Assembly (NCBI RefSeq): GCF_030116705.1
Contig: NZ_JAOTIK010000003.1
Coordinates: 71,039-135,038, forward strand
DNA length: 64,000 bases
Source: Streptomyces sp. ML-6
GTDB taxonomy: Bacteria; Actinomycetota; Actinomycetes; Streptomycetales; Streptomycetaceae
Reading direction: 5' to 3'
The position numbers and the translations under genes are program-made. The notes under the pieces are model-generated. The model was not told the origin of the DNA, did no database searches, and saw only the letters and a list, made by a program, of their open reading frames with translations. Every line of letters starts with the position of its first letter. The stretch's first letter is position 1. Below are positions 1-64,000 of this stretch, piece by piece.

Positions 1-203
1 GTGGTGGCGGTGCGGCGGGCGGCCCAGCCGAGCAGACCGCCGGAGCACAGGGCGCTGAGCAGGCCGATCAGCAGGCCGCCGGTGATGGCGGCCGCCGAGG
101 GCGCCTCGCGCCCGGTGCGCCACCACCGGGCGAGCGTGAGCACGAGGACTGCGGCCGCCAGGGCGAAGCCGCCGAGGGACAACTGGGTCGGCGTCACGTT
201 CAC
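1..203 (-). CDS. Partial small membrane protein (C-terminus beyond window)
   Basis: The frame opens with a GTG at 203 that overlaps the TGA of the upstream gene as GTGA, which implies translational coupling. About 67 codons are visible before the window edge. The visible part has two hydrophobic stretches, about residues 7-22 (rich in Leu, Ala and Val) and 40-62 (Gly/Leu-rich), separated by a basic segment containing RWWR. That suggests a two-helix inner-membrane protein. It is the last visible member of the minus-strand transfer-like cluster. No family is recognised. Third-position G/C bias is strong, which supports coding. Confidence 0.6.
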   Translation of the reverse strand, partial: MNVTPTQLSLGGFALAAAVLVLTLARWWRTGREAPSAAAITGGLLIGLLSALCSGGLLGWAARRTAT

Positions 204-592
204 GGCAGCACACCCCAGGTCAGCCATGTGAGCACGGGTCCGGATACGGCGATCAGGAAGGTTCCGAGGACTGTTACGGCCCACGGGGTGGCCAGGCGGT
301 CGTAGGCGGCGCGGCAGTCCGGGCCGGGCTCTGGCGGCAGGAGCCAGCAGCTGACCGAGAGGATCAGCAGGTAGAAGGCGGCGGCGACTGCGAGTTCGAC
401 CGGCACTGGCACGGTGTGGGCCAGGTACGGCCACCTCACGGCGGCGGCGACGGCGAGGAGGCCGAGCCCCGGCGCGGGGCGCCGCAGACGCTCCGCCCGG
501 TCGGTGAGCCCGCGACGGGTGAGCGTGCGGACAACGCTGGTCAGGTAAGGGACGGCGAGGCCGGCGAGCAACTCTCCCACGGGTACGTTCAC
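200..592 (-). CDS. Hypothetical polytopic membrane protein
   Basis: A 130-residue protein starting at a GTG. Hydrophobic segments lie near residues 5-20, 45-60, 63-85 and 105-128, so three or four membrane spans are likely. The start overlaps the stop of a 12-codon reading frame upstream, and its stop overlaps the GTG of the next gene. It belongs to a tightly packed minus-strand run that includes a Spd-like protein, so a role in plasmid transfer or spread through the mycelium is plausible. That is inference from context only; no conserved motif is visible. Confidence 0.6.
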   Translation of the reverse strand: MNVPVGELLAGLAVPYLTSVVRTLTRRGLTDRAERLRRPAPGLGLLAVAAAVRWPYLAHTVPVPVELAVAAAFYLLILSVSCWLLPPEPGPDCRAAYDRLATPWAVTVLGTFLIAVSGPVLTWLTWGVLP

Positions 593-627
593 CGCAGCAC
601 CGCCAGGAGAAAGGTCCGTACGGTCAT
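589..627 (-). other. 12-codon coupling mini-ORF
   Basis: The ATG at 627 overlaps the stop of the upstream Pro-rich membrane protein gene as ATGA. The frame encodes MTVRTFLLAVLR and ends at a TGA overlapping the GTG start of the next gene as GTGA. It is too short to be a domain. It may be a coupling relay for ribosomes or simply fortuitous. Its double overlap is the reason for recording it. Confidence 0.3.
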
Positions 628-1217
628 GACCACACCCCGGTGAAGAGGTAGCCGAAGAGGTGCAGACCGGCCGGGGTGACGAAGCAGGAAGCGACGATGT
701 TGCAGGTCAGGAAGCGGACCGGCCAGGAGCGGCCGCGCTTGCGCAGCTCCAGGATCCCGGCGGCGGCCAGGGCCGCCATCAGCACCCCGGGCTCGTCCCC
801 GAAGACGTGCAGGACCTTGCCCGTCACCGGGAGGAGGAGCAGGCCCGCGACCAAGGCGGACCCGTTCTTCAGCGGGCTGAGCCGGGAGACGCTGAACCGG
901 GGCGGCCGGTCCTGCTGTGCGGGCTGGGCGGGGTAGTAGTGGTGGTGATGCACGGTGGGGGCGGGCGCCGGTGCGGCCACCGCCACGCCCCCGTCGCCAC
1001 GGGGCGGCGGGGGAGCGGCCGGAGGCCTGGCCGGGGGAGCGGCCGGAGGTCCGGCCGGGGGCGGGGTGGTGCGCCGGGGCGGCGGCAGGAACGGGTCCGG
1101 CACGGACGGCGGGGTGGAAGGCGGGGGAGGTGGCGGCGTGGTGCCGTTGTCGGTGCGCTCCGTGGAGAGCTTGACGTCGGTCGGCTCGATCGGCCGGCCA
1201 TGGGTGGTGTCGGTCAT
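624..1217 (-). CDS. Pro-rich N-terminus membrane protein, hypothetical
   Basis: 197 residues. The chosen ATG overlaps the stop of the preceding gene (ATGA, 1214-1217). Residues about 28-85 are an Ala/Pro-rich low-complexity stretch, followed by a His/Tyr cluster (HHHHYY). The C-terminal half holds two to three hydrophobic segments, roughly residues 115-130, 138-152 and 165-195. The layout fits a cytoplasmic disordered tail on a small membrane protein. Such proteins are common in actinobacterial plasmid transfer clusters, but I do not recognise a named family. Confidence 0.6.
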   Translation of the reverse strand: MTDTTHGRPIEPTDVKLSTERTDNGTTPPPPPPSTPPSVPDPFLPPPRRTTPPPAGPPAAPPARPPAAPPPPRGDGGVAVAAPAPAPTVHHHHYYPAQPAQQDRPPRFSVSRLSPLKNGSALVAGLLLLPVTGKVLHVFGDEPGVLMAALAAAGILELRKRGRSWPVRFLTCNIVASCFVTPAGLHLFGYLFTGVWS

Positions 1218-1498
1218 CGCCGGACCTCCGTATCGGCGTCGGTGTGGCCGTGCTGGTCGTGGTGGAGCCAGGCCCGCACCGCCAGCTCGTCCGCGTCGGC
1301 GGTGGCCAGGGCGGTGGGCGCGGGGGCGGGGGTGGTGGCGGGACGGAACCCGTCGGGCAGCCGCCGCGGGACCGTGGCGGCCGGCGGGGCGGGCAGGGGA
1401 CGGCCGGGCAGGCGGGTGACCGTGACCGGGACATCGGCGAGGCGCCGCAGGTGACGCAGGCGGCGGGGACGACGGACATGCAGACAGACAAGCAACAC
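1214..1498 (-). CDS. Small basic hypothetical protein
   Basis: 94 residues from a GTG start with GGAG a short distance upstream. The N-terminus is Arg/Leu-rich (RRPRRLRHLRRL), the middle is Pro/Ala-rich, and the C-terminus is acidic (DADTE). Very high third-position G/C supports this frame over its shadows. The stop is coupled to the next gene through ATGA. No domain is recognised. Confidence 0.5.
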   Translation of the reverse strand: MLLVCLHVRRPRRLRHLRRLADVPVTVTRLPGRPLPAPPAATVPRRLPDGFRPATTPAPAPTALATADADELAVRAWLHHDQHGHTDADTEVRR

Positions 1499-1597
1499 GG
1501 GCTCTCCAGAAGGGAGTTGAGGCCCCGAGGGGCCGCCGTACCGGGTGTCGTTGCGGCGGCCCCTCGGGGTGTGTGGAATGGAGGTGGGGCGGGGTGG

Positions 1598-1798
1598 TCA
1601 GCGGGTGCGCCACCAGCCGCCGCGGTCCTGGCGGGCGCGCTCGGAGGCCTCCCACGCCTGGCCCTGCCGGTCCGCCGCCCGCGCGTTGCGGTGGTGGGAT
1701 TCGCGGCGTTTGCGGGCCGCCTTCTCGCTCGCGGACTCGCGGCCGCTGTACTCCTGTGCGAGCTTCTGGTCGTTGCCGATCAGGCCGAAAAAGGCCAT
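1598..1798 (-). CDS. Small charged hypothetical protein
   Basis: 66 residues beginning MAFFGLIG, preceded by AGGAG about 10 bases before the ATG. The in-frame extension upstream lies in the GGGTCTGCTCG repeats and is unlikely to be translated. After a short hydrophobic start the protein is highly charged and probably helical (Ser/Glu/Lys/Arg-rich). The C-terminus GGWWRTR is unusual. Its place directly downstream of the Spd-like gene suggests an accessory transfer role, by context only. Confidence 0.55.
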   Translation of the reverse strand: MAFFGLIGNDQKLAQEYSGRESASEKAARKRRESHHRNARAADRQGQAWEASERARQDRGGWWRTR

Positions 1799-1894
1799 GG
1801 TGAACACGCTCCTGACGGTTGGTTGGGGGTGATGGAGCCGCTCCTGGCCGGGCCGTGGAAAGCGGGCCGGGAGCGGCTTCGGGCGGGGCTCCTC

Positions 1895-2000
1895 CGGGGG
1901 CGCGCCGGGTCTGCTCGTCCGGGTCTGCGAAGCGCGTGGCTTTGCTCGCCGGGGTCGCTCGCCGGGTCTGCTCGACCGGGTCTGCTGCCGCCTGTCGACT
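1895..2000. repeat. Short GGGTCTGCTCG-type tandem repeats
   Basis: Several imperfect copies of a GGGTCTGCTCG-like unit occur between the Spd-like gene and the small downstream gene. They contain no credible gene. They may be a replication-slippage array; no function can be assigned. Confidence 0.5.
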
Positions 2001-2086
2001 GCGTGGTGCATGGTTCCGGCAGTCGCAGCGACGGCCAGTCCGGCGGTGCCGGGCTGGCCATCACTGGTGGTGCCGGGGGTTGGGGA

Positions 2087-3367
2087 TCAGGGCCGGGGAG
2101 CGGCCTCTTCCTCGTCGTCCTCGTCCGTGCTCTCGTGCTCGGAGTCCGGCTCGGCAGGGGTGTCGGTCTCCTCGGACGACATGAGCTCGCCCCAGACCCT
2201 GCGGACCCGCTTCTCGCTGCCGACGTATCCAGCGTCACGGAAGTCGCCCACAGCCCGGCGGTAGGACCGGGGAGGGTCCTCGCGGTAGCGGAGGTGGCGC
2301 AGCACGACCGCGAGCTGCTCGTCAGTCAGGTGTTCGCCCGGTACGGGGACCGGGACGCCCGCGACGGCCGCGAGGTCCTCCAGCGTCACGGTGTACTGCT
2401 CACCCGTGACGGTCTCGTCCGTGACGGCCTTCTCGGCGTGGTCCGTGACGGTTTCCGTCACACCCTCCGTGTCGGTGGCCGTGACGGTGTGACGGGGCAG
2501 GGGCGTGACGGTTTCCCCGCCCTGTGACGGATCGTTGCCCGTTTCCGGGCTGACCTGCGTGACTGTGTCCGTGACGGCCCCTGCCGGGGCCGTGCCGCCG
2601 GTGTCCCGAACGGTCCCGTCCGTCACGGACGGCGTGACGGACGGTGCGGCGGGTGCCCCCGGTTCGAGGGCGGGTGTGACGGACGCGGCAAGGGCCGGTG
2701 TGACGGCCGGGGCGAACATCGCGGTGAGCGCGGTGTCCGCACCGGCCGTCATCCGGTCGCGCTGGACGGTCACCAGGCCGGTCCCAAGGCCGTCGTCACC
2801 GACACCGACCCGGCGGGCCAGCCGCCAGGACTTGCGATCCGCCTTCTTGCGGGCCTTCTCGTCGGGGTGGTTCGTGGCCAGTGCCCTCTGCACCGCAAGT
2901 TTCTGCAGCGTCCTGGCGTTGCGGCGCTGGGCCTCCATGTCGACGCGCGTGCGGTAGATCACCACCCTGCGGGCCAGGAGTCCGATGCCCTCCGCGGCCA
3001 CGCACATCGCCATCGGGGTCACCGAATAGACGACGGCCTCCGTCGTGTCCTCGGCGACGACCGCGCCGGTGGCGGAGGCCACCGCGGGCAGCGCCCACAG
3101 ACCGAGCCGCACCGCCGGGGGCGAGGACTGCCCCAGCAGGGTCAGCCCGACCAGGACGAGGGCCAGGACCAGGGTGGCGCCCTCACCGGCCGCGACGACC
3201 CCGAGCGCCGTCGCGGACTCAGAAAAATGCGCCCGCATGTTCGTATAGGTACCTGCGGCTCCGATCCCGCCGACGACGAGCATCGGGACGGCTGCGGCTC
3301 CCAGCACCACCCCCTGGCCTCTGGTCAGGGCCCGCTCCTGCGGGACCGGTTCCTTTTCGTGCTCCAT
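2087..3367 (-). CDS. Spd-like DUF2637-type transfer membrane protein
   Basis: 426 residues, with AAGGAG just upstream of the ATG. About four transmembrane helices lie in residues 17-130. A basic stretch (about 140-190) resembles the DUF2637/Spd-type proteins of Streptomyces conjugative plasmids, which help spread plasmid DNA through the recipient mycelium. Residues about 205-330 are a low-complexity Val-Thr-Asp/Pro region encoded by repeated GTGACGG-type codons. Residues about 335-400 look like a winged-helix or helical DNA-binding segment, and the tail is very acidic (Glu/Asp-rich). The transfer role is inferred from architecture and the nearby KorSA-like gene; no TraB/FtsK motor lies in the window. 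Confidence 0.6.
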   Translation of the reverse strand: MEHEKEPVPQERALTRGQGVVLGAAAVPMLVVGGIGAAGTYTNMRAHFSESATALGVVAAGEGATLVLALVLVGLTLLGQSSPPAVRLGLWALPAVASATGAVVAEDTTEAVVYSVTPMAMCVAAEGIGLLARRVVIYRTRVDMEAQRRNARTLQKLAVQRALATNHPDEKARKKADRKSWRLARRVGVGDDGLGTGLVTVQRDRMTAGADTALTAMFAPAVTPALAASVTPALEPGAPAAPSVTPSVTDGTVRDTGGTAPAGAVTDTVTQVSPETGNDPSQGGETVTPLPRHTVTATDTEGVTETVTDHAEKAVTDETVTGEQYTVTLEDLAAVAGVPVPVPGEHLTDEQLAVVLRHLRYREDPPRSYRRAVGDFRDAGYVGSEKRVRRVWGELMSSEETDTPAEPDSEHESTDEDDEEEAAPRP

Positions 3368-3403
3368 GCTGAATCTCCTTCTGCCGAACGGTGTACGGGC
3401 GGG

Positions 3404-4075
3404 TCAGGACCGGGCGCGGTCGCCGGTGAGCGAGGCGACGGTCTGCAGGTGCTCGCGCTGCTGTGTGATCACGGCGGACATCTGCCGCACGAGCGGCCTT
3501 TCGCCGTAGCCCCGGTAGTCGTAGGAGTCGCCGATCACCCAGCCGGTGGTGTCGAGACCGGCCCGCGCGTACGCGTCCCGGCGGGAGAGGTCGCTGTACA
3601 GGAACTTTTCGTTGACCTCGACGAGGGCCGCGGCCTGCTCGTCCCAGGCCCGTGCGGCCTTCAGCGCCTGGTCCTGCGCGGTGACCAGCCTGGACACCGC
3701 GGCGTGCCAGTGGGTGTCGTCGGTGGTGGCCAGGGCGGCGAAGGCCTCGTCCAGCTGCGTGCGAGCCTGGTCGAAGGTGCCCCAGGCCTGGGTGGCGGCG
3801 GGGCGGAGGTTGGTGAGCGCGCGGACGTACCCGGCGTCGTACCAGAGGTTGCGGGCCTCCCGGTACTCCTCCTCCAGCAGGTCGCAGGCCGCGTCGCTCA
3901 GGCGGGAGTCGGTCCGTACCTCGCGGGGCAGGACGGGCTCCTTCTCCAGCCCGGTGAACGCGGCGAAGGTGAAGGAGACGCTGTTGTACTCGGTCTTGGC
4001 CACGCCCTGGAAGTGGGGGTGGTGGTAGGCGGCGGCTTGCTCGGCGAGCTTCGTTACGTCGTAAAGGCTGATCAT
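3404..4075 (-). CDS. Hypothetical helical cytoplasmic protein
   Basis: 223 residues. AGGAGG sits just upstream of the ATG (MISLYDV). No signal peptide or membrane span is seen. Much of the protein from about residue 60 to 170 looks alpha-helical and rich in Ala, Glu, Arg and Asp, so a coiled-coil or bundle fold is likely. I do not recognise a family. It lies between a small plasmid protein and the Spd-like gene, all on the same strand, so it is probably part of the same transcription unit. Confidence 0.55.
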   Translation of the reverse strand: MISLYDVTKLAEQAAAYHHPHFQGVAKTEYNSVSFTFAAFTGLEKEPVLPREVRTDSRLSDAACDLLEEEYREARNLWYDAGYVRALTNLRPAATQAWGTFDQARTQLDEAFAALATTDDTHWHAAVSRLVTAQDQALKAARAWDEQAAALVEVNEKFLYSDLSRRDAYARAGLDTTGWVIGDSYDYRGYGERPLVRQMSAVITQQREHLQTVASLTGDRARS

Positions 4076-4191
4076 GATCGGGTCCTCCTGGTCTTTGGTG
4101 GTCGTCCGGGCTGTCCGGGCTCCCCTCACCGTCCGGTCCGGCCGCTGGGGTTCGGCGGCCGGACCGGACGGGTCGGGCAACTGGCAGTCCG

Positions 4192-4578
4192 TCAGGGGCG
4201 GGGAAGCTCCGGGCGCCGGGAGGCGGTGGCGGTCTGCGCGGTGAGCCAGGCGACGGCGGCCGGGGTCATGTCGGCCGTGTCCGTGACCGTGTCGAGCGGT
4301 GCGGTGTCGATGTCGCGCATCGCGTCGGCCGGCGGCAGCAGCCGCATGTACGGGGCGCGGGCCTGCTTGATCAGCCCGCCGGTGCTGTCCAGGCGGGCCA
4401 GGGTGTAGCGGATCTCGCCGCTGCTGAAGGGGATGACCCCGTCGACCCGGCAGACCACCGTGTGCCCCGGCTTGCCGAGCCAGAACTTTTCGGGGTCGCG
4501 GTAGAGGACGTAGTCGTCGCACCGGTACGTGACCGGCGCGGCCACCTCGGCCACGGAAGAGGAAGAGCTGGCGTTCAT
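4192..4578 (-). CDS. Hypothetical plasmid protein
   Basis: 128 residues, with AAGGAG immediately upstream of the ATG. It starts with a Ser-rich N-terminus, then a mixed region with YVLYRDPEKFWLGKPG and a beta-rich middle, and ends in a Pro/Arg-rich tail. No catalytic motif stands out. It shares strand and spacing with the transfer-like cluster. Confidence 0.55.
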   Translation of the reverse strand: MNASSSSSVAEVAAPVTYRCDDYVLYRDPEKFWLGKPGHTVVCRVDGVIPFSSGEIRYTLARLDSTGGLIKQARAPYMRLLPPADAMRDIDTAPLDTVTDTADMTPAAVAWLTAQTATASRRPELPRP

Positions 4579-4711
4579 TTGTCTCCTTCGGATGATCGGG
4601 TCGGGTCTGTGCCCGGAGCGAGGGTTCGTGAAAGGCCGACTGCTCGTCGGGCGGGCAGCCGGCCGGGGATAGGAGCGCGGGGCGGGCCACGACTTCGTAA
4701 CCGGTCCCGCG

Positions 4712-4903
4712 TCACGGGCGGCGCGGCCCGGACCCGCGCGAGCGCAGCTCGCGGAGGTAGGCGTCCTGGAGGTCGGCGAACCGCTGGTACAGCGGGGCTC
4801 CGTCCGGGCAGTGCTGCCCGGACCGGCAGGGCTCGCAGTCCCGGTGGTGGGTGCGCCAGGCGCGGTGGGCGTGCATGTAGCGGGCGTACAGGTCGTCAGC
4901 CAC
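4712..4903 (-). CDS. Small zinc-motif protein
   Basis: 63 residues from a GTG start (VADDLYARYMHAH); the longer upstream extension lacks coding character. It carries CEPCRSGQHC followed by a Gly and a hydrophobic helix, which suggests a small metal-binding knuckle. A near-identical signature, CAPCGSGVSC, closes the larger zinc-motif protein at 6430-7071, so the two genes probably share an ancestral module. Function unknown. Confidence 0.55.
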   Translation of the reverse strand: MADDLYARYMHAHRAWRTHHRDCEPCRSGQHCPDGAPLYQRFADLQDAYLRELRSRGSGPRRP

Positions 4904-6326: not shown

Positions 6327-6429
6327 GGGCGGGTCCTTCCATCGTGGTGAGCGGGTGCGGGCAGCCTGATAAGCCCCCAGGCCAGGGGCGCTGGGGGCTG
6401 CTGTCGTGGTTCTGACTGGTCGTACGAGG

Positions 6430-12559: not shown

Positions 12560-12561
12560 TC

Positions 12562-13907: not shown

Positions 13908-14179
13908 TCTGACGTTGGTGCGGCAGACTTCCCCGGCGGTGTCATCTAGACCAAACGCACGAACCGCATCTCGTGTCCATCCCCGACGGGAGTGACAGCT
14001 CTTCCGGTCGCAATCTCCGCAGCCGAGGCGCCTCCACCGCTGGACTGCAAGGCGGACAGGAATTGAAACCGACTCTTTCCGGCTGGTCCCGCACCAGGGC
14101 AAGCAGTCACACCCTCCTTAAGCGTGCCCGGTTCGCTCAGGATGGTGGCAAATGCCGGTCAAGGAAGGGTGATTGCATC

Positions 14180-14890
14180 ATGGCGGACTGGGTGAAGGTC
14201 GCGGGAAGTCTCTCGGCCATCTCGGCGGGGTCCAGGACGACGGTGTGGGGTGTGAACGCGGCGAGCGCGATCTACCACTACACGAACTACGACGGAAGCC
14301 CCTGGATCAACATCCCGGGAGGCTTGAGTGACATCGGCGCGGCGGCGGACGGCACCGTCTGGGGCGTCAACAGCGGCAACCAGATCTACCGGTACACCGG
14401 AGACCAGAGCACGACGAACTGGGTGGGCATCAACGGCAGCCTGGTCCGCATCGACGCGGGCTCCCGGACCAACGTGTGGGGCGTCGACTCCGCCGGCAGC
14501 ATCTACCGGTACACCAACCACGACGCCAACCCGTGGCTCAAGATCCCCGGCTCACTCAGCGACATCGGCGCTGCGGCGGACGGCACCGTCTGGGGGGTCA
14601 ACAGCAGCAACCGGGTCTACCGGTACACCGGGGACCAAGACCCCTCCGACCCGTGGGCGGACGTCAACGGAAGTCTGAAGCGGATCGCGGTGGGCTCCCG
14701 GACCAACGTGTGGGGCGTCGACCCGGCCGGCAGTATCTACCGGTACACCAACAACGACGCCAGCGGAACCAACCCCTGGATCAAGATTCCCGGCACCGCC
14801 ACCGACATCGCCGCCGGCGCCGACGGCACCGCCTGGCACATCAACAACGCAGGGGACATCTTCCGCTACACCGGCGACCAGCCCAGCTGA
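14180..14890 (+). CDS. Tectonin-type beta-propeller protein
   Basis: 236 residues starting MADWVKVAGSLSAIS, with GGAAGGG upstream. The whole protein is about six repeats of 36-40 residues with the pattern W-x-x-I/V-x-G-S/G-L...DGTVWGVN...YRYTG, typical of tectonin/TECPR propellers. Such proteins bind glycans or phospholipids; fungal tectonins bind methylated sugars and are toxic to nematodes. No signal peptide or membrane span is visible, so export would need another route or the protein acts inside. It stands alone beside an IS element, as accessory cargo. Confidence 0.75.
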   Translation: MADWVKVAGSLSAISAGSRTTVWGVNAASAIYHYTNYDGSPWINIPGGLSDIGAAADGTVWGVNSGNQIYRYTGDQSTTNWVGINGSLVRIDAGSRTNVWGVDSAGSIYRYTNHDANPWLKIPGSLSDIGAAADGTVWGVNSSNRVYRYTGDQDPSDPWADVNGSLKRIAVGSRTNVWGVDPAGSIYRYTNNDASGTNPWIKIPGTATDIAAGADGTAWHINNAGDIFRYTGDQPS

Positions 14891-27284: not shown

Positions 27285-27338
27285 TTCGAAAGGGTTAAAT
27301 ATTCAGGTTAAAGAAACCATCGCGGAAGGGTTAAAATG
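27285..27338. promoter_or_regulatory. GGGTTAAA repeats upstream of tap
   Basis: AGGGTTAAA occurs near 27291 and near 27329, with a GGTTAAAG between. They lie in the AT-rich promoter between zeta and tap. Because Tap begins with an XRE-type HTH, they are candidate autoregulatory sites. Confidence 0.4.
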
Positions 27339-27368
27339 TGCTACGGTCCAGGCTGGAAGGAGAGCCAC

Positions 27369-29534
27369 ATGGCAACTGAGGAAGAGCTGTTCGCGAACAT
27401 CGACGCCCTGCTGGCGGAGGAGCCGCAGCTCCCGCCCCCAGCGGAGCGCGCCCGGCTCCGCGAGGCCGCTGGCATCACCCAGGCCCGCCTCGCGACCGCG
27501 CTGAAGACCACGACACAGACGGTGAAGAACTACGAGAACGGCAGGAGCGAGCCGAGGCCGCCGCGGCTGGAGGCGTACCAGCGGCTGCTGAAGGGGTGGG
27601 CGGCGAAGTACCCCGCCAACGGCGCCCCCGCCGCACCCGCCCCGGCCCCACCCGTCGCGCAGCGGCCCGAGGCGCCGGCCGCGTTCACCGGCCCGGCCGC
27701 CCCCGAGCAGACGGAGGCCGCCGCACCCGCACAGGCTCCTGTCCCGGCCGCGCCGGCCGTGGCGGGGCGTCCCGCCCGGTCGGCCGCGGCCGCGCGTCCG
27801 GCGGCGGCGTCGTCGCGGCGCCCGGCCGCGAAGAAGGCCGCCAAGCCCGCCAGGCCCGCCGTCGACTCGCGCTTCCCGCACGGCCCGCTCGCCGTGCTGG
27901 ACGGTGACGGGTCCGCGTACGGCACGGGTGGGATCGTGCTGGACTGCCCCGCGACCACGGTGCCCGAGCTGGTCGAGTGGACGCTGCGCGAGTCCGGCCT
28001 CGGCGCGCCGAGGCTCCACCGCTACGGCAAGGACAGCGACCCGCTGATCGTCCTCACGGCGGCGGCCGCGGTGAAGCTCGGGCTACCCGAGCGCCTGGAG
28101 GGCCACGAGCAGCGCCGCTCCCTGCGCCTCCCGGAGGATCACCCGGTCGTCAAGCAGGTCACCAAGGCCCGCTGGCAGTTGACCCAGCGCGGGTTCGGCC
28201 CGTGGGCCAGGATCTACCGCAAGGCGCAGGGCCGCGAGCGGCAGTGCGTGCAGCTGGCGATCCTGTCCTGGGACGCCCTCGACGAGCGCTCCTGGCCCGG
28301 CGTGAGCGAGATGGAGCCGGCCGACATCGCCCGCGTCCTCGGGGTGTACGCGACCCGGGTCATCACCCCGCGCGGCTCCACCGCCGTCTCCGGCCTGGAG
28401 CTGATGACCGCGCTGCGCCCGCCGACGAGGGCGGTGCAGGATGCGGAGAGCGGGAACTGGGTGCCGGGCCACAACCCCGGCTCGCTGGGGACGGAACCGA
28501 TGGACCCGGCGCCGCCGGAGGCCACCCCCGAGCACCCCGTCGTCGTCAACTCCTGCTGGAGCGGCGGGTTTTTGAACGAGGAGGCCTACCAGTGGGTGCG
28601 GCCGGTGGACATGCTCACCGACGAGGAGTGCACCCTGCCCTTCGCGGTCGGCCTGGACCTCAACACCGCGTTCCTCGCGGCCGCCGCGAGGCTCACGGTC
28701 GGCCTGTCCGCCCCCGACCACTTCGTCGGCCCGAAGTTCAACCCGAAGATCCCCGGGAGCTGGCTGGTCGACCTCAGCCACATCGAGCTGGACCCGCGCC
28801 TGCCCAGCCCGTTCACCCCGGACGGCTCCCGCCCGACCGGCCCGGCCTGGTACCAGACGCACACCGTCGCCTACGCCCAGGAGCTCGGCCACGACGTGCA
28901 CCCGCTCGAGGCGTACCTGCGCCGCGAGACCGGCGCGTACCTGGATCCGTGGCACGACCGGCTCAAGACCGCCTACGTCGACACCCTCGCCGACCTCGGC
29001 GTCACCAAGGACCTCACCGACGCGGAGTTCCTGGCCGCGATGGAGCGGCACAAGCAGGTCGACCCGGCGCTGGCCGCCGTCCTGTCCGCGATCAAGGCCA
29101 CGGTCAAGGGCGGTGTCGGCAAGCTCCGCGAGCGCCCGCAGGGCCGCCACTACAAGGAAGGGGAGCGGTGGCCGGCCCTGGAGCGGCCGACGTGGCGCCC
29201 CGACATCCGCGCCGCCGTCATCTCCAAGGCCCGGGTCAACATGCACCGCAAGCTGCTGAACATGTCCCGGATGACCGGGCTGTTCCCGCTCGCCGTGCTG
29301 TCCGACTGCGTCGTCTACCCCAGCCCGGGCGAGAGCCCGCTCGACTTCCTCCCATACGCGGCCTCGGGCAAGCCGCAACCGGGCGGGTTCCGGCTCGGGC
29401 CCACGCCGGGCCTGGCGAAGGTGGAGGGCGTGCAGTCGATGCTGTGGGCGGTCGACCTGATGGAACAGGGCCTCAACCCCGCCCGGCACATCAAGGGCGG
29501 CGGACATGACGCGTCGCTGGACGAAGGAGAGTAG
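27369..29534 (+). CDS. tap: Telomere-associated protein Tap
   Basis: 721 residues from ATG 27369, with GGAAGGAGAG upstream; an earlier in-frame ATG lacks a ribosome site. Residues about 25-70 are an XRE helix-turn-helix (GITQARLATALKTTTQTVKN). A long Ala/Pro-rich linker (80-165) follows, then a large C-terminal region. Tap recruits terminal protein Tpg to Streptomyces telomeres. The C-terminal part has polymerase-like segments: GLDLNTAF (about 430), KATVKGGVGKLRER (about 576-589) and SDCVVY (about 645). The tpg gene follows 2 bases later, the classical order. Confidence 0.85.
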   Translation: MATEEELFANIDALLAEEPQLPPPAERARLREAAGITQARLATALKTTTQTVKNYENGRSEPRPPRLEAYQRLLKGWAAKYPANGAPAAPAPAPPVAQRPEAPAAFTGPAAPEQTEAAAPAQAPVPAAPAVAGRPARSAAAARPAAASSRRPAAKKAAKPARPAVDSRFPHGPLAVLDGDGSAYGTGGIVLDCPATTVPELVEWTLRESGLGAPRLHRYGKDSDPLIVLTAAAAVKLGLPERLEGHEQRRSLRLPEDHPVVKQVTKARWQLTQRGFGPWARIYRKAQGRERQCVQLAILSWDALDERSWPGVSEMEPADIARVLGVYATRVITPRGSTAVSGLELMTALRPPTRAVQDAESGNWVPGHNPGSLGTEPMDPAPPEATPEHPVVVNSCWSGGFLNEEAYQWVRPVDMLTDEECTLPFAVGLDLNTAFLAAAARLTVGLSAPDHFVGPKFNPKIPGSWLVDLSHIELDPRLPSPFTPDGSRPTGPAWYQTHTVAYAQELGHDVHPLEAYLRRETGAYLDPWHDRLKTAYVDTLADLGVTKDLTDAEFLAAMERHKQVDPALAAVLSAIKATVKGGVGKLRERPQGRHYKEGERWPALERPTWRPDIRAAVISKARVNMHRKLLNMSRMTGLFPLAVLSDCVVYPSPGESPLDFLPYAASGKPQPGGFRLGPTPGLAKVEGVQSMLWAVDLMEQGLNPARHIKGGGHDASLDEGE

Positions 29535-29536: not shown

Positions 29537-30127
29537 GTGGCACGCAACATCCAGCCGGGCACCGCGGATGCCGACGACGCCCTGGTCGTCGACGCGATCG
29601 AACGCACCGCCCAGGAGGCGTTCACCGCCGCCCCGCCCAAGAGCCTCCAGGCCCAGGTCAACTTCCTGGTGAAACAGCTCAAGACGACCAAGGCCGTCGC
29701 CGCCGAACTCGGCATCAGCCAGCGCTCCGTCGAGCGCTACCGCAAGGGCCAGCGCAAAAACCCGCCGAAGAACATCGCGGCCCGGATCGAGACCGCGGTC
29801 CGGGCCCGCTGGCAGCCCAGGATCCGTCAGCGCGCGAAGAAACGGGCCGCGACCAGCACCGGCATCACCATCGAAACCCGCGCCACCTTCGGCTACCGGG
29901 CCCCCGTCGGGACCACCGACGAAGGCCGCCAGCGCCGCCTCACCATCCACCTCCCCGCCCACTACGCCAGGCGCCTCTTCGACGCACAGCAGGGCATCGG
30001 CGACCAGACACCGAACGAAGTGATCGCCGACGGAATCAAAGAAATCTATTTCCAGGACGGCGGACACCGCGCCCAGGACCTGGAAGTGGAATTCACAGGA
30101 ATCGACTACATCGACGTTTCCTACTGA
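29537..30127 (+). CDS. tpg: Terminal protein Tpg
   Basis: 196 residues from GTG 29537, with AAGGAGAG in the end of tap. The sequence matches the Tpg plan: PKSLQAQVNFLVKQLK, an HTH (AVAAELGISQRSVERYRKGQ), a basic segment with WQPRIRQRAKKRAA, the conserved GITIETRATFGYRAP, and the C-terminal FQDGGHRAQDLEVEF. Tpg caps the 5' ends of linear Streptomyces replicons and primes synthesis that fills the 3' overhang. Length is near the usual 184. Its presence is strong evidence for a linear plasmid. Confidence 0.9.
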   Translation: MARNIQPGTADADDALVVDAIERTAQEAFTAAPPKSLQAQVNFLVKQLKTTKAVAAELGISQRSVERYRKGQRKNPPKNIAARIETAVRARWQPRIRQRAKKRAATSTGITIETRATFGYRAPVGTTDEGRQRRLTIHLPAHYARRLFDAQQGIGDQTPNEVIADGIKEIYFQDGGHRAQDLEVEFTGIDYIDVSY

Positions 30128-35667: not shown

Positions 35668-36288
35668 TCATGCGCTCGCCTTGCGTACAGGCCGCTTCTG
35701 CCGCAGCGTGACGACCTTCTCCCTGCGGCGGGCGGCCTCGGCGGCCTTCTTCTCCGCCTCTCGGGCCTGGCGCCACTCGGTGGGGTAGTCGGAGTGCGGG
35801 ATGATGCAGGCCGGGCCCTCCGCGCTGTTCCACAGCGCCTGCCACTTCTCCTGCTCGCCGGAGGTGCCGGCCACCGTGAGCCACGGGTTCAGCTGGAGGA
35901 TGCCGCGCTTGGCAGTGCGCATCCAGCCGATGTGCGCGAAGAACTGGCTGGCCTCGTTCACCGAGGCGGCGGACAGGTTGCACCGGGCCTGGAGGTCACG
36001 CTGGTTCGTCTTCACGAAGCCGCGGGCGGCGGCCCGGAGGTTGTCGTCGGCGCGGTTGGCGTTCTGCAGCGCCACGAGCTTGCACCAGACCTGGAACCAG
36101 GACCCGGGCATCTTGAGACTGCCGAGAACATCCATCAGCAGCCGGGCGTCCAGCACGTAGCCGCTGCACCCCGCGCTCGCGGCGAACTCGCGGCCCTTGA
36201 TCTTCTCCACGCCCAGAATCAAGCCGCCCTTGCCGTCCGACCTCGCGACAACGCGCTCGCCGGGGCGGACGATCGGCAGCTGTTCCAT
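35668..36288 (-). CDS. RepL-like winged-helix protein 2
   Basis: 206 residues; ATG 36288 is preferred because GGAGG is 9 bases away, though a GTG at 36294 is in frame. Residues about 55-130 hold GSWFQVWCKLVALQNA, ARGFVKTNQRDLQARCNLSA and ASVNEASQFFAHIGWM, a winged helix, with the wing ILQLNPWLTV matching the LYQLHPLLTG of its neighbour. The tail is very basic and helical. It is a plausible replication initiator for this end of the plasmid. Its promoter carries composite element 3. Confidence 0.5.
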   Translation of the reverse strand: MEQLPIVRPGERVVARSDGKGGLILGVEKIKGREFAASAGCSGYVLDARLLMDVLGSLKMPGSWFQVWCKLVALQNANRADDNLRAAARGFVKTNQRDLQARCNLSAASVNEASQFFAHIGWMRTAKRGILQLNPWLTVAGTSGEQEKWQALWNSAEGPACIIPHSDYPTEWRQAREAEKKAAEAARRREKVVTLRQKRPVRKASA

Positions 36289-36328
36289 CAGCACAGTCCT
36301 CCAGAGATGATCAACGTTTCGGGGAGCA

Positions 36329-36374
36329 CGGTAGCACTAGGTAAACCGGTTTGTTCTGGAGGGGCAGAACAAAC
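36329..36374 (-). promoter_or_regulatory. Rep-associated composite element 3
   Basis: Inverted copy: CGGTAGCACTAGGTAAACCG then GTTTGTTCTG-N6-CAGAACAAAC. It lies 41 bases upstream of the larger RepL-like gene, so it probably covers its promoter. Confidence 0.7.
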
Positions 36375-36413
36375 GGCGTCTCAAAGCCAGCTGACGTGGC
36401 GTCAGTTTTCGGG

Positions 36414-36476
36414 GGTTTTTGTTCTAGGTTTCCAGAACACCCGGGACGCGTTTGTTCTGGAAACCTAGAACAAACG
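36414..36476. promoter_or_regulatory. Two further TTGTTCT palindromes
   Basis: TTTTGTTCT-N6-CCAGAACAC (about 36417-36440) and GTTTGTTCT-N9-AGAACAAAC (36450-36476) repeat the element without its side motif. Five copies in all lie around the two RepL-like genes. Confidence 0.65.
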
Positions 36477-36479
36477 GTT

Positions 36480-37077
36480 TCACATCACCGCAGGTCAGAG
36501 CCGGTTTCGACGCGGAACGCTCTTATGTGTCACTAGAGCCCGGCTGCTACACGAACCCCCGCCAACACGCCGCGGGGAACAAGCAGCTGGCAGCAGCGGG
36601 TGTGTTGCCGCCGACAACGACCGGATCGGGGAGACCGGCCCCGTGGCTGAGCTCGCTTCGCGTGCCGCGCCGCGCCCTGGTGCGGGTCGTGGACAGCAGC
36701 AGCGGTACTGAGTCTCGGGTGGTACCGGCCGTGACGCTCAAAAGCATGGAAGAGTGGTCGGCGCCGGTGGACGGTTCCGCCGCCCGGCCCTGGGGGGCCG
36801 TTCGGCTCCGGTACCTCCGCGCGTCGAATTTCGACACTCGCATATCGGAGCTTCCGTTCTGTGGCTGAGGTATCAATGGCGGCACAATGATGAATTCATC
36901 CGGTAGCTTTTGGCCAGGGTGAGGGGTGGTGCAGCAAGGACCCAAACCCTACACAGCTGTATTTCCTGATGCATTAAGCTGTCTACGTAGACGCTCACAT
37001 GGGTGATGCGTCACCACTTTCGGCCCCATAGTGTCGGATTGATGTGTATTCTGACGGAGTACTGATGAACGTGAGGG
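36480..37077. other. Terminal noncoding region of left arm
   Basis: About 600 bases with no credible gene. It contains the perfect palindrome GTCTACGTAGAC (36981-36992) and the hairpin GGTGA-TGCG-TCACC (37002-37015), and leads to the fold-back centre. Palindromes this close to a tap-tpg-bearing end suggest a telomere, although the sequence is not the canonical Streptomyces type. Confidence 0.5.
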
Positions 37078-37107
37078 CGGTCTGAACCCGGCCCCTCACG
37101 TTCATCA
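37063..37107. repeat. Fold-back centre / hairpin loop
   Basis: TGATGAACGTGAGGG (37063-37077) and CCCTCACGTTCATCA (37093-37107) are perfect inverted arms around a 15-base loop. From here outward the window is its own reverse complement, imperfectly. Confidence 0.85.
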
Positions 37108-44276: not shown

Positions 44277-45780
44277 GATGGGGAGGTCCACGGCTCGATG
44301 GGTGAGCCGGGAGAGAGCCAGATGTTGCTGCCGAAGTCATTCCGGCGGCGGCGGGCCACGGCTGCGATGCGAGGCGGCGATGTCGTCTTCATCGTGTCCA
44401 ACCCGAGGCCAGACCGATCTGTGCGATTCAGGCGATTCTGGCTCGGCGAGGCCGCGCTATACCAGCCCGTGCGCCGTGGCAGGTTCCCTGGCGCCGATGT
44501 CGCCGCTGTGGAATACGGCCGGTGCCTCGGCCTGGCAGACTGATCAGAAATGTCCGCGCTCGTGGAAATCCGCTTCGCCAGCCGCTTCGGGTTCCGCTCG
44601 CCTCGTCCGCCCGTCTACATCGAGATCTCGATGGTCGACACCCCAGCTCGGGATCTGTAGATCTGCTGACCGGGCGGCCGCCGGCATTGGCGCGTGCGTG
44701 GCGCAACTGCCGGACGCTGGCGGCCATCGAGGCCGGCGGCGGCGACTGGTTCGCAAATCGCGGCACATGCGCGACAACGAGCTGTCGACGGCGCAGATCG
44801 CAGGACGGCATATGACAAACCTGTGCTCGGTGCTGGGCCCTGGAGGCGCCGGGGAACATCTTCCCACCGTGAGACTGGCCGCCAGCGCCGGCGTGCGAAT
44901 ACCGGGATCTGCCGGGCAGCAGATTCACCGCTGGGCCGATGCCATGCCGCGGCGCTCGCCGAACCGGTCCGCCTTCTCGGCCGACCCGCGCGCCCGGAAT
45001 CATTACCACCGGCTCTCGGACCGGCGCGGCCACCGTGGGTCTCGACGGCTGTCGCCCCGTCTCGTCTGAGCAATCATCGCCGGGACGATCCCGCGAGCCC
45101 GGCCGAAGCGAGCAAGCCGGCGTCAGGCCTCGCACCCCGGACCTGCGGCTGCTGAAGAGGACCCCGTACGATCGAGGCCGACCTGGGCCTGAGCAGGTGT
45201 GCGCCGCCGGGCGCGCCGATCCACTCCTCGGGGGCGCGGGCAGCATGCAAATGTGCTTCTCCAGCGCCCTGCCGTTCGGCCGGCTATCCGAGTCGAACTC
45301 GTCGTCCGCGGAGCGAGACAGCCGCTGTCGGCGGCCATCCCCCAGTTCTACCGCGCGGCCCGCATTTGCCACTCCGCGGAACCTGTTGTCCTGCGCCAGC
45401 CATCGGCTGTGTGGCGACCCTCTGCCACGCTGGGCGCGGCCGGACAGTGCGCAGCCGGGTACAGCCCGCTACACTGCCACCCTCCGGCTCCGCAGGCGCT
45501 TGCCTGGAAGCACTGCCGCAGCGCCAGGACGAGCTGGACGACATCCGCCACTCGCCGCCCGCGCCGGATCTCTACCACAGCTTGTTGAGCTCAGCTCAGC
45601 AGGCCCGTGGGCGCCGACCTCCTGCGCGGGTCGGCGGTCGCCAGCGGCTGCCCGCACGCCTGCCGGCCTTCGATTCTGAGCAGCTCCTCGACCTGCGCTT
45701 CGCGGCGATCAGATAGCCCGCACAGAACGCGGACGTATCGCGACTGGATTCTCATGCCCGCTCCCGGGTGATCGTCTGCG
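44277..45780. other. Corrupted mirror of zeta-toxin and convergent gene
   Basis: Begins GATGGGGAGGTCC (zeta start) and passes CAGGACGAGCTGGACGACAT near 45528 (zeta C-terminus). 45580-45775 mirrors the small acidic gene. Confidence 0.7.
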
Positions 45781-57559: not shown

Positions 57560-59386
57560 CTGGCTGTTGATGGCGATATGACATTTTTAAATCGATCATC
57601 ATCAATTTCAAACATGGAAATCCAGTTATTCTGTTGACATACGTGACCATCTGCGTAAATCTGATCGCCAACATTAATCTTAGGCGGTGAGACCAACAGA
57701 TCGTCATCTGGATCATCCTTCTCTGGAAGTATCGCTCTTCTTGACCAGGCCGCTGCATATCACGCTCTGCAGTGACCATTCAGATCGTGCGACGTGTTTA
57801 CTGGCCGCCCCTACTATCCACGTGGCTGAAGTGACGTCTCGGTACTTGGCTGTCCGTGGTCAGCTCGGTGTTCGTCGGCGCCTTTATTCAAGGGGCGAGT
57901 ATTGCGTCGGCTGCAGTTGTCGACCGGCCCTTCATTTTGAGTCGCGTTGAGCGCCCGACGTGCGTCTCGCCCTGCCGCCATGCGCGGCCTGTGATTATAA
58001 GCTGACGACTGGGCGTATTCTGCGTCGATCTTGGCCATCGATCTTCCGTCTGCTGGTATGGTGCGTGATCGCGGACATCCCCTCTCACAGCGATCACCGA
58101 CACCTCGTTGTACGGCTCAGCTGCCGGATCTAATCGCCAAGTGTCTTCGGGCATCTAGCGGATCTGTTTCCTTGAAGACATCGCTAGCCGCAGGGATCGC
58201 GGCGTGGACCGCTGGGTCTTCCAGCTCGGGCCGCTCCGAGCTTCGCCGTCTGGCTGCCGTGCTTACACGCCAGTAGTGACGACCTGCGCGTCCCCTGGGC
58301 AGCCGGTGTCGCCACCTGCCAGCTGCGCGCCCGTGGCGAATGCCGGACGACCTGCGCAATCGAAATCGCGAGGGGTCAATCACGTCTGTGTCCGGCGACC
58401 AGCGCGATGCTGGCCCGTACCTCGGCCTCCGCTGGGCCCCCGCCTGTGTCTGCCCGGATGACACCGCAACCTCCAGCGGCTCCGATGACCGCTGGCCGGC
58501 GTCCAACGCCGGCCCGAACCAGGCATGTGCCGTCGGCGACAAATAATCCGGCGGAACGCCGCTGGCATCGCCGATCGGCGATGGAGAAGGAGTGGACCGG
58601 CCCCGCCGGAGCCGAGCCACGGCCATGGCCGTTACGTCCCTGCGCCCGCGCCCGATCCCAGTGCCCGCCGCCACCGCTGCGCGGACTGGACGATCACCTG
58701 AAGTGACTGCGCGGCCGCTGCGCCCACATGTCATCGAGCCGTCGAGCGGATCCACCCGCACCTTGAGTCGTCGCTCCAGCCTTCACCCCGATCTACGACG
58801 CGATATGGCCGGCGTCTCTGGTACAACTGCCGCCAGCACCCTGGCCCGCGCCGCCGATGCACGACCGGTGGGGTGGCTTGCGCCCTGACCTGAGCGAAAC
58901 GCGCGCGTCTTCTACGATGGGACCGCGTGACGCTTACTCCCCACACTATCCTTGCGCGCTAGGCGCCGTCGGCCTCGGCGCTCCTCTCGTCAGGTGTCGG
59001 CGATCAGCCTGGTCGTCAGCGGCGACGGCTCGGTGCGGCGGACGACCGCCCATGTCTGCGCCGTGCTGTTCGAGCGCAGGTGTATCGACGGTATCGTGCG
59101 ACTGGCTCAGTCGTAGCAACACCACCTGGGTGGCCGTCATTTTGACCACCTTGCCGTGACCACCCTCCTGTGCTCGCGTCGCGGCCCTATGTTCGGTTCC
59201 ACTCGGCCACGATGAGCCGGGCCACGTCGCCGGGCGAGACACCCGGCGCGACGCCGTGGCGACCGGACGTGTATGCGCGCCATGACCAGGCAACCTGGGG
59301 TATCGCCGTCCATGGCCCGCGGCTGGCTATGATATCTCGGCAAGTGGGACACGCCCGCGTGGCCTGGCGACTCCGCCCGTGCTGCA
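57560..59386. other. Corrupted mirror of KorSA-like, zinc-motif and WhiB-like genes
   Basis: GGACATCCCCTCTC at 58075 mirrors the KorSA-like start, the operators recur near 58150-58195, the zinc-motif gene spans 58376-58885, and the WhiB-like gene 58927-59386. Confidence 0.7.
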
Positions 59387-59449
59387 CTAACCCTCGGGGC
59401 TGGTGCGCTGGCCGCAGGTTCCACCGTGCCGTGCCAGAGCTACCGGCGC

Positions 59450-62400
59450 CACCGCCGGAGGCGGCAGGATATAAGCGCCTCGGCGCGGCCCCCTATGGCC
59501 TTAACCCCGCCCGCGCGTCGGGAGCCCTCCCGCCGGAACTCATCGGCAAGTGGCCGGTGACGCCGGCGTGCGAGAGACCAGTGCTCATCAGCTCGTTGAC
59601 CGCCCGCAGGCAGTGACTGAAAGCCCAGGCAGCCGATCGGACTACGCAGACCCATGGCCCCAGCATCGTCTTCTCAGATTGTGAGCAATTGGGGCCCGCT
59701 ACATGAGGCGCGCCTCGAAGGCCAACAGGCGGCAGCGGGACATCTCCAAAGGCAGGGCGGCGAGGCCGAGAGCCGCCGCGGCGGTCCGCCTCTGTGCGAC
59801 CCGGCACAACTGACAGCTGCGCGTCCCGCGGGACCGCGATACCCACGCCCGGACGGCCCGCCATCCCGGCGGAGACCGCGAGCCGTGCCGTCTCTCACCC
59901 GGCCCGCCCCTCGCCCCGCCTTCTTCACCAGGCGGGTCCCATGGCTGACGACCCGCTACATGCACGCCCCACCGCATCTGGCGCCGCCCTGCCAGCCCTC
60001 CGAGCGCTTGGACCTGCCGGCGGTTCGCCGACTCCGGCCGCCCTCGCATTTCCGCGCTCCTGGAGTCGGCCCTCCTCCCGCCCCATAGGCCCGTTGCGAA
60101 AGTCTGGCCCTCTCACTCTCTCGGCAAACTCGCCCGCTAACAGCTGTCCTTTCACAGTTTTGACAATCATCGAAGAACAAATGAGCGCTCTTCTCTTTCC
60201 GTGACGGTGGCCGCGCCGACGACCGTCTGCCGCGACCGAAAAATTCTGGCTCGCGAAGCCGAGCAGCCTGTGGTCTGCGGGTCGCGAAGTCATCCTCGCC
60301 CTTGTACCGGCGCGCCGCGACCTTCTGCTCGGCGATGACCGCCCACGAGCGGACCGCCGTGCCAGTATCCAGATCGGCGCCAGGCCCTGGCAACCTGGCG
60401 CCGAGAAGGCGGGCAGCGGACGACACCAGACAGGAGGTGTCATGATCAGCGGCAGCTTCGCCGAACGAGCCGCCTTACCTGCGCCCCTTCCGGGGCGTGG
60501 CCGAACCGAGTACAGCGGCGTCTCCTGCCTTCGCCCATCGTCGCCGGGCGCTGAAGGTCCGTCACGGGACCGACTTCCCGCCTGAGCGGGCGCGGCGCAG
60601 CATTCTGGAGGAAGGAGTACCAGGAAGACCCGCAGCCTCGTTGCGGCCGATATCGCGCGCTCACCAGCTCGCGCCGCCACCCGAGCACCTTCGGCCGGGC
60701 TCTTGCGTGGACCGGGCCTTCGCCCTGGCACCGCCCGCTCGGCGCCGCGTGTCCGGGCTGTTTCCGCGCAGAACCAGGCTGAGCGGTTGGCTCAGGCGCA
60801 GCCAGTGCGGCAGCGACCTCTCCCACTACCGGGACGCGTACGCAGCTGTCTCGACCCGCCGCAACTGGGTGATCGGCGACTCCGATGCCGGGCAGCTGGC
60901 GAAGGCTGCTCGTGCGTCTCAGCGTGACGCCATCTTCTTCATGACGGCGCTCTGTTCCGCCCATTTTCATTCGGCAGAGATTCAGCATGGAACGCGAAAG
61001 GCCGATCCACGGAGCAGGCCTGACCAGGGCCGAGTGTGCTGGGCTGCAGCCATCCCGTGCTCGTCGTCCGAGGCCGCGGTACTATACGAGCAATGCCGGG
61101 CCTCCGCCCTCTGAGTCCGCGACGGCGCTCCAGGGCGCGGCGGCTGAGCGCCCGCCCGTCTGGCCCTCGTCCTGTTTTCAGGCCGACCCTCCTGCGGAGT
61201 CCTCGCCCCCGGCGGTTATCTGGAAGCGCTGCCCAGTGGCTCCGCCGGCGCGATGGATCGCCCGCGCAGGTTACGGCAGGCCGTCATCTGACCTGGCGTA
61301 ATGCGCGGAGGACATCGGACATCCACCACGCACGCGCATCATTGCAGAATTATTTGTTTTCACAAAAACTGCGATTGCGGAAAACCGCAAAGCGGATCCT
61401 CATCTCGTGACTGGCCCGCTGGTGTCGGTGACGACGACCGCCCGGGACCGGCTGGTGACCATCCAGCCGCGAGCATGTTCGACGATGCGGACATGCATCA
61501 CCGCGATCTTCGCCCGGCTGCCGCAACCGCTGCGTCCGACAGGCACCACCGCGCCGTCCTCGCGCCGTCCGGCGAGACCGGGACCGTTCGGGACACCGGC
61601 GGCACAGCTGGCGGGGCCTGTCCTGGGTCAGCCAGAGCGGGCAACGAACTGAAGACATCGCCCCGCCTTATCACGCCGTGCGACCTGTCTGAAGATGAGC
61701 GAAGCCGTCTGAACCTACCGAGGCACCGTCTGAACAGTTTGCAGATGGCTGTACCGTGACGCTGGGAACCTCGGCCGTCGCAACTACATGCCAGGCAGTG
61801 ACTGTGAGCAGCCGCGTCATGCGCGCCTCGCCGGGCCTCGTCTGCCGGGCTGTAGGCGACTCCGTGACGCTGGACGGCGAGAAGCCAGGTCCGCAGGGCT
61901 CATGTGCGTCGAGACTGACACTGCCGACCAGCTCCGAACGAAGACGGACGGGGACGGTACGTCGGCGCTGGCGCGATGATGGCCGTGCTGCGGACTGGCC
62001 GTCTGCCAGGGCTCCTGCTGCGCAGTCGACAGGCGGCGGCCGCAGGCCGTCGAGCCAGACCGCGCTCGCAGGCGAGACAGGCAGACAGCGCTGAAGAGCC
62101 CGCCCAGGCGCCCGGCCCGCGTATGAAATCTTTGGCCAACCGTCGAGGCGTGTTCTCCTTTTCGGCCGCGATCGAGCAACGACAGAGCTGCAGGAGCGCA
62201 GCGACCGCGAGTCCGCGGCCGGCCCTGCGCGCCGCAGCGACCGCCGGGCGGCGCGAGACCGGCAGGCCAGGCGTCGGGGCTCCGGCAGACCCGCGGCGGC
62301 TGGTGGCGCGCCCGCGCTATCTACCTCCATTCCACACTGAGACCGCCGCAACGACACCCGGTACGGCGGCCTCGGATCTCCTTCTGGGAGAACCCGTGTT

Positions 62401-63419
62401 GCTTGTCTGTCATGTCGTCATCCCCGCCTGCGTCTGCGGCGCCTGCCGCGATGCCCGCCTGCCTTCATCCCCTGCCCATGCCATTTCTGACATCACCTGC
62501 CCCGCGCCCGCGACCTGCCGACATGACTTTGGCGGGGCGGGCCTGGCTCCACCACGACTGTACGTTCACCTGTTTGCCGTACGGGAGTCGGCGATGGTAC
62601 ACCACACCCGTAGCCGGCATCAGCTACGTCAGGAGCTCTCCGCAGACCCTCGCGCCCGCCGTGCCGGACTACCATACTACGCTCCGCCCCGGCCCCGCCG
62701 CGCCGCCCCGGCCCCCGCCGGCCGCGGGCTCCCATTCCCCACCGCCCCCGACCGACTACTGCCCCGCCCCGAGGCCCCGCGAGACCGGCCGCCCCGGCCA
62801 TCTTAGCTCCGAGCCGCTGAGGGCGGGTCGCCTCGCGGAGTGCGCATCTTCGGGACGGCGAGACGGCGGCCTGGCCTCTCGGCTGCGCAACGTTCGCTCT
62901 GGCCAGTCCTTCTGACACGGCCTCGTCACTTCTGCTCGGCCTCTTCGGCTACATAGCTACCGGTGTGTGTCGACCGGCGCGGACACTGCTCTGGCTGACC
63001 TACGGACAACAAGCCGACCGTCTGACCGGCGCCCTCGCCCGGTGCTCCTGACTCGGCCTGACGTCTGCGCCCGCCAGGCTTCTCGCCGATCGCGCCGCCG
63101 CTGGTGACCGTACAACTGCGTGCCCGGTGCCACCCGCTCTCCCCCCGCCTTTGATCCTCTCGATCCTTTGCTGGCTCCCTGCCGCGCTGGTGCCGCGACC
63201 CACCCCGTAGACATGGCAATCCTCGGAATTCCTGATCGCCGGCAATCCCCCAGGTACGTGTCCCAGCGGGGTGTGCTGCCGCAGGGTGTGACCGCCCGCC
63301 GGGCGGTCCTGTGCTCCGCATTCCCCTCGCCCGTGGTGGCGCACCAGGCGCGAAGGGCGCCCTCAGCGAAGCCGCCATCACCCAGCCAGCTCCCGCCAGG
63401 CCGCCCGCGCCGCCACCTC
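59450..63419. other. Corrupted mirror of the transfer-like cluster
   Basis: Landmarks: 59938 (63-residue zinc protein), 60180 (4578 start), 60438 (4075 start), 60984 (Spd-like start), 62157 (MAFFGLIG gene), 62398 (1498 start), 62594 (1217 start), 63350 (position 120). Confidence 0.7.
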
Positions 63420-64000
63420 GCCGGCCCTCGGCAGCGATCGCCGGGCAGGGCGAACGGCCGGCAAGCGCCCCAGTTCACGCCCACATAGACGCTCTCGCCA
63501 CGATGCTCTCTGGGTATCGTCTCTTTTCTTCTTACGCTGGCTCCAACTGCGCCGCCAGGTGGCCGAAATACACTGTGTGGCGGCCGGAGCTGACCGCGGA
63601 GCGTGGCACCACCCTCATCCCCGGCCATTGAATGCCTCGGCGATTGAAATCTGCCTCCACCTGCCCTGCTCCAGTGGCCCCTCTTCCCCTGCCGGAGAGA
63701 TGCGTGCTCAACCCTGCCCGCATCCCCTTGCTCAGATTCAATGAAGTCAGAAAAAGGGTGGGGCGACCTGTTTTCGCCAGTGGCGCCTGCAGCGGCCCGC
63801 AACTCCAGCGGCCCTGTCACTCGGCCATCACCCCTGATTTTCATGAGATCACCGAGCGAGACACCACGCCCGCGCGTCCGCTCTCCGCCCGTCGCGGCGC
63901 AGCATCTCACCTCCTCTGACAAATCGTCTATCTTCTCGACTGTATGGGCGACCTGCGTAAAAATCCGAGAAAAGCTCGCCAAGCAGCCAGTGTCGTGTAT
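63420..64000 (-). other. Mirror of sequence left of the window
   Basis: Past 63,419 the mirror has run out of left arm. These 581 bases should correspond to about 800 bases upstream of position 1. No gene can be called reliably at this error level. Confidence 0.55.

Follow-up and report, generated by a model that had tools for sequence, protein, structure and literature searches.

The right arm of a giant palindrome at the end of contig NZ_JAOTIK010000003.1 most likely does not represent real DNA. Instead, it seems to be the left arm's opposite strand, read with many base-calling errors and added by sequencing and assembly. This contig (hereafter C3, 135,038 bases) belongs to a 9.13-Mb assembly of five contigs from Streptomyces sp. 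ML-6. The window, by which we mean the whole stretch of 64,000 nucleotides analysed here, corresponds to C3:71,039-135,038. It is the final 64 kb of the contig, and its end is the contig end.

We rate the palindrome as an artefact and put at about 0.94 the probability that it arose from a fold-back long read near the end of a linear plasmid, kept by the assembler as a contig extension. Our reading is based on the contig-terminal place of the right arm, its shortening, the blindness of its errors to codon position, their strand asymmetry, a 57-to-2 result in an ancestry test and a centre lying near a telomere. We therefore present a caution and not a discovery: 27 kb of C3 are probably not real sequence, and annotation of the right arm would give spurious pseudogenes, palindromes and gene counts. 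The three-way ancestry comparison, the strand asymmetry of the errors and their codon-position blindness help to distinguish an artefact of this type from a duplication that has decayed, without recourse to raw reads.

Geometry of the palindrome

Self-BLAST of the window returned 92 reverse-strand self-matches, of which 81 span position 37,085, and a single collinear chain holds 80 of these 81. As controls, five other 60-71-kb stretches of the same genome gave 7-8 reverse-strand self-matches each (0-5 of them non-local), and three Markov-2 resamplings of the window gave 0, 0 and 1 self-matches, none of them non-local. The ends of C1 and C2 (60 kb each) and the whole of C4 and C5 contained 2-6 reverse-strand self-matches per piece and no mirrored series.

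The sequence-only reading had proposed one giant imperfect inverted repeat centred at 37,085, with mirrored landmarks in unbroken order and a continuous anti-diagonal expected in a dot-plot. Our data confirm this structure far beyond chance. The innermost aligned pair of bases is 37,077 on the left and 37,093 on the right, with a midpoint of 37,085, and it is this pair that defines the centre here. The ungapped mirror score is maximal at 37,085.0 and 37,085.5, where it reaches 25/59, barely over the 24/59 found elsewhere; by itself this score proves little about the centre.

The palindrome thus has three parts. The left arm (1-37,077, forward strand) is the genuine right-hand part of the linear plasmid contig, with its long genes intact. 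The turn-round point (37,078-37,092) consists of the bases between the innermost aligned positions. The right arm (37,093-64,000, reverse strand) is, on the present evidence, a noisy, shortened reading of the left-arm complement and not a real second copy. The arms measure 37.1 kb (inside the window) and 26.9 kb and differ in quality, much as had been described from the letters.

Since the right arm falls steadily short of the left, the mirror point shifts from 37,062 by the centre to 31,731 at the outermost end. The right arm extends to the final base of C3, where its last aligned piece corresponds to C3:70,685 onward. When the final ~275 unaligned bases are added by extrapolation, the right arm reaches back to about C3:70,300, that is, ~0.7 kb to the left of the window start. 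In the right arm, 26.9 kb stand for around 37.8 kb of left sequence, a ratio of 0.71.

The same reading had argued that no ordinary mobile element or terminal repeat accounts for such a palindrome, and none of our findings makes either of them the explanation. Its treatment of the structure as an unexplained genomic palindrome did not hold. The unequal quality of the arms itself provides the explanation, with the noise profile of a single-strand long read, a stop at the contig end and a start near a telomere. The mirrored landmarks are what a double reading of one DNA would give.

The left arm is a linear-plasmid end

The left arm is a genuine Streptomyces linear-plasmid end carrying tap and tpg. 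The tap gene for the telomere-associated protein (27,336-29,534, forward strand) matches NF047542 at 1133.7 bits against a cut-off of 600, and the tpg gene for the terminal protein (29,537-30,127, forward strand) matches NF047541 at 268.9 bits against a cut-off of 90. The arm also encodes an IS1182 transposase exceeding its NCBIfam cut-off and a zeta toxin exceeding its Pfam cut-off, and its open reading frames are as long as 911 aa. Plasmid records matching a 25-kb query come from Streptomyces in 280 of 287 cases; the closest of them, NZ_CP109371.1, covers 37% of the query at 87.4% identity.

The left arm shares tap, tpg and a conserved subterminal kilobase with the Tap/Tpg type of Streptomyces linear plasmid ends. 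It differs from them in that the last ~0.3 kb of most relatives is absent at the turn-round.

On the same linear plasmid, positions 13,973-14,890 of the window encode a product with a strong Tectonin-domain match (337 bits).

Errors in the right arm

In a gap-tolerant global alignment of the two arms, each 2-kb block lacks 25-46% of the left bases and has 5-8% of them substituted. These per-block rates and deletion fractions are only rough because unrelated sequence scores close: matches and deletions amount to 0.61 and 0.325 here, compared to 0.53 and 0.375 for unrelated sequence. We did not use them as absolute rates and repeated the tests on local alignments. The chained local alignments (91 of 95), which are biased toward the better-read pieces of the right arm, span 9,119 bases of the left arm, in which we counted 805 substitutions, 844 deletions and 227 insertions. 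Deletions are about as frequent as substitutions within these better-aligned pieces, and it is the net shortening that supports an excess of losses. We also used flanked columns, defined as columns of the global alignment bounded by exact matches on both sides. With five exact flanking bases per side there are 1,532 such columns, compared to around 9-11 per 37 kb for unrelated sequence.

The right-arm errors are blind to codon position. Across 12 mechanically picked genes, local alignments of right versus left show substitutions at 137/1427, 134/1420 and 120/1433 of first, second and third positions, and deletions at 115/1427, 141/1420 and 118/1433; outside these genes, there are 414 substitutions and 470 deletions in 4839 bases. 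The flanked columns agree, with 15/247, 23/258 and 12/238 differing at the three positions. Natural divergence looks different: for the same genes, the left arm compared to a related plasmid differs at 208/2536, 186/2532 and 441/2532, a distribution heavy in third positions.

A three-way comparison used the 60 flanked columns at which the left arm and NZ_CP109371.1 carry different bases. The right arm agrees with the left arm at 57 of them, with the relative at 2 and with neither at 1. A duplicate older than the split from this relative would carry the relative's base at about half of the columns, and noise is expected to produce 1.4 such columns of 60; a duplication younger than that split would fail this test too. 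The result therefore indicates that the left arm from which the right arm stems already resembled the present one closely, and any heavy decay would have come later.

These observations bear on the possibility of a real inverted duplication that decayed through mutation. The collinear order, without a break across the whole right arm, fits such a history. Nonetheless, we consider it very improbable given the 57-to-2 split, the strand asymmetry described below, the lack of a codon-position effect and the stop at the contig boundary. Neither an equality of transitions on both strands nor a third-position excess, either of which would have favoured a decayed duplication, was found, and the relative's bases are shared at 2 of 60 columns, where noise would produce 1.4; on these tests together we rejected this candidate.

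The strand asymmetry is pronounced. In left-strand notation, the local alignments contain 391 pyrimidine versus 128 purine transitions. The counts become 211 versus 32 when three exact flanking bases are required and 70 versus 12 when five are, compared to 26 versus 27 for unrelated sequence aligned alike. We see no evident reason for this lopsidedness in double-stranded mutation over time, and it is expected of a base caller reading one strand.

Strand-biased transitions would also fit a cellular process that actively scrambles or hypermutates one arm. Deamination, however, is a one-way transition process, and here both directions are common, with 105 C to T and 106 T to C at three flanking bases (222 and 169, respectively, in the local alignments). 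Together with the net loss of around 3 in 10 bases across the whole arm and its contig-terminal place, these two-way transitions led us to reject cellular hypermutation, which we regard as the least credible of the explanations weighed here.

At the gene level, the longest open reading frame entirely inside the right arm has 378 aa, compared to 911 aa in the left arm. When ten left-arm proteins were traced in the right arm by tblastn, seven gave a match of any kind and none was fully covered, the matches consisting of pieces only. A comparison of homopolymers told us little, since long runs are already scarce in the left arm. In the noisy arm, ARAGORN places a tRNA of undefined type, with four bases in its anticodon, at 45,153-45,227; this call is very likely false.

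Position of the turn-round relative to the telomere

The conserved subterminal kilobase occupies 36,085-37,081 (forward strand), the latter being the final base aligned to NZ_CP109371.1. Among 20 listed of the 152 matching plasmid records, it lies at most 515 bases from the record end in 15 and is internal in 5. We also examined 20 related contigs, many of them draft, so that their ends need not be replicon ends: 14 of the 20 end 275-341 bases past the point homologous to the centre. The remaining six end 157 and 199 bases past this point, 76 bases before it and 4.1 kb past it, have it internally in one case, and fold back in another (G149, see below). Relatives found through the subterminal protein (ten, among the matches listed) show a similar spacing, with five ending 280-337 bases past the point and the others at 393, 177, -183, -227 and -767; equal spacing is assumed in this comparison, and at least two of the ten are apparently the same contigs as among the 20. 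The stretch missing from C3 carries, as judged by eye, short palindromes in four of five aligned relatives.

Six telomere classes have been described (PMC8743542), and the 3′ overhang of the Streptomyces telomere is given as ~300 nt (PMC4513846). With most related contigs ending ~0.3 kb past the centre-homologous point, an overhang of this size places the turn-round near the inner edge of the expected overhang. A read or a library molecule presumably stopped at the turn-round point.

A fold-back long read as the probable source

We found that near-identical 31-kb ends within this assembly differ mainly by homopolymer indels (7/7, 12/14 and 11/13 of the indels in three comparisons, with 1, 3 and 2 mismatches), a pattern which fits a long-read consensus. 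Base losses of the kind seen in the right arm point to nanopore rather than PacBio.

The following sequence of events would produce the palindrome. A long read, very probably nanopore, would have travelled rightward along a linear Streptomyces plasmid until it had almost reached the end, and would there have reversed and read the complementary strand back. Behind the pore, the first strand would have re-annealed to the second and pulled it through too fast, leading the base caller to miss about three bases in ten and to miscall others. The assembler would then have retained the noisy tail as a 27-kb contig extension; the tail stayed uncorrected, possibly since the clean left arm is the better target for the remaining reads. 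From the sequence we infer the nanopore platform, the fast translocation, one or a few reads as the source and the reason for the lack of correction. The two strands may have been joined as an unsplit template-complement pair, by self-priming or ligation of the end, or in a hairpin made in the cell. Whether the joining took place in the tube, the pore or the cell, the right-arm letters are unlikely to be real.

A failure of this kind is documented. In nanopore reads over inverted duplicates, quality drops close to the junction, translocation is faster and bases are missed (Spealman 2020, PMC7229812). According to the same report, the second part mirrors the first but is shorter, and re-annealing behind the pore is proposed to pull the strand. 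The right arm resembles these cases: it is collinear with the opposite strand and shorter throughout, with missed and wrong bases, a loss of sequence quality near the junction, and errors that are strand-specific and blind to coding function. Two differences concern the setting and the degree. The earlier cases were real inverted duplications seen in reads, while ours is an assembled contig; and the shrinkage to 0.71 looks stronger than the 'slightly' of the figure legend in that report, which counts against the match.

Fold-back reads with nothing between the halves are also a documented long-read artefact, and sequence between the halves was searchable in fewer than half of artefact reads (Breakinator, PMC12870357). 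As covered there, they occur in read sets including human and mouse, while the present case lies in a bacterial assembly near a telomere. Against the fold-back reading, a search for adapter-like sequence at the centre found no 14-mer shared with the tail of plasmid record NZ_CP108594.1, the sole tail tried. Assembly artefacts at Streptomyces terminal repeats have been reported, but those in the part of that report available to us are not of this fold-back kind (PMC11260486). Among titles and abstract openings on Streptomyces telomeres, nanopore sequencing and fold-back, we found none describing such a case.

Could the palindrome be real in the cell?

A palindrome might also exist in the cell, as a closed hairpin end or as head-to-head plasmids, with the right-arm letters still wrong owing to nanopore noise. 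We consider this unlikely, although it has precedents. For example, hairpin-ended plasmids of Rhizobiaceae yield reads that run through from strand to strand (PMC13293297), and pELF1 has one presumed hairpin end, where the prototype sequence carries a 5-kb inverted repeat, and one protein-capped end (PMC6863802). What these plasmids share with the present case is that reads reaching the end cross to the opposite strand. They differ in that here no ResT/TelK resolvase was found and the relatives have open-type ends.

Two observations argue for a protein-capped open end. Both tap and tpg are intact near this end of C3, and the homologous ends continue, as judged by eye, into short palindromes in four of the five aligned relatives. 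A search of this one genome for a ResT/TelK-type resolvase (PF16684) gave no hit, with a control positive in 1 of 14 genomes, so that the reach of the search is uncertain. With tap and tpg present and the resolvase not found, a closed cellular hairpin is not what one would assume first. Moreover, the centre lies ~0.3 kb short of the end found in most relatives, and fold-back occurs in 1 of 20 related contigs and in 0 of 10 subterminal-protein relatives among the matches listed, a count from which noisy cases could escape.

The one related contig that folds back, from genome G149 of the same genus, speaks for a molecule of this kind, as it ends in a clean palindrome of 22.2 kb (99.94%) whose centre falls in a telomere-like stretch rich in palindromes. 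The palindrome spans 336,647-358,841 of contig C4 of that genome, is centred at 347,744 and reaches the contig end; its self-alignment has 5 mismatches and 8 gap positions. We read it as a fold-back artefact that was polished or else as a genuine head-to-head end. More widely, matches converge on one centre in 2 of 45 matching genomes, ML-6 itself and G149, a survey that would overlook noisy fold-backs in distant relatives. Apparent fold-back in three further genomes, G075, G091 (at both ends) and G107, was rejected since the both-orientation matches point apart.

A narrower version seems to us somewhat more doubtful still, namely a real molecule whose two strands connect at the inner border of the 3′ overhang, as a transient hairpin or head-to-head form in Streptomyces. 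It could arise, for instance, by self-primed fold-back of the single-stranded telomere or by joining of an unpatched recessed strand. Extension from a fold-back of Palindrome I has been observed in vitro (PMC4513846). If such a molecule exists, a transient joined telomere would leave a readable trace in assemblies, in the form of contig ends that fold back.

Other contig ends

The left ends of C1 (7.78 Mb), C2 (0.99 Mb), C3 (135 kb) and C4 (122 kb) share 31-34 kb at 99.9% identity or more, with starting points no more than 12 bases apart. Possibly C1 and C2 represent opposite ends of a single chromosome bounded by terminal inverted repeats; the shared end is also found on the two plasmid-sized contigs, C3 and C4. 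Directly past it, C1 and C3 have a 1.3-kb repeat (90%).

Finally, the 'complete' plasmid record NZ_CP108594.1 has a palindromic tail (81%) of ~106 bases, which we take to resemble a nanopore rapid-kit barcode adapter. A 61-base piece of this tail matches 18 plasmid records, 14 of them from Streptomyces, most over half its length only. Among the 15 listed of these 18 records, all 12 from Streptomyces have the match within ~120 bases of the record end.
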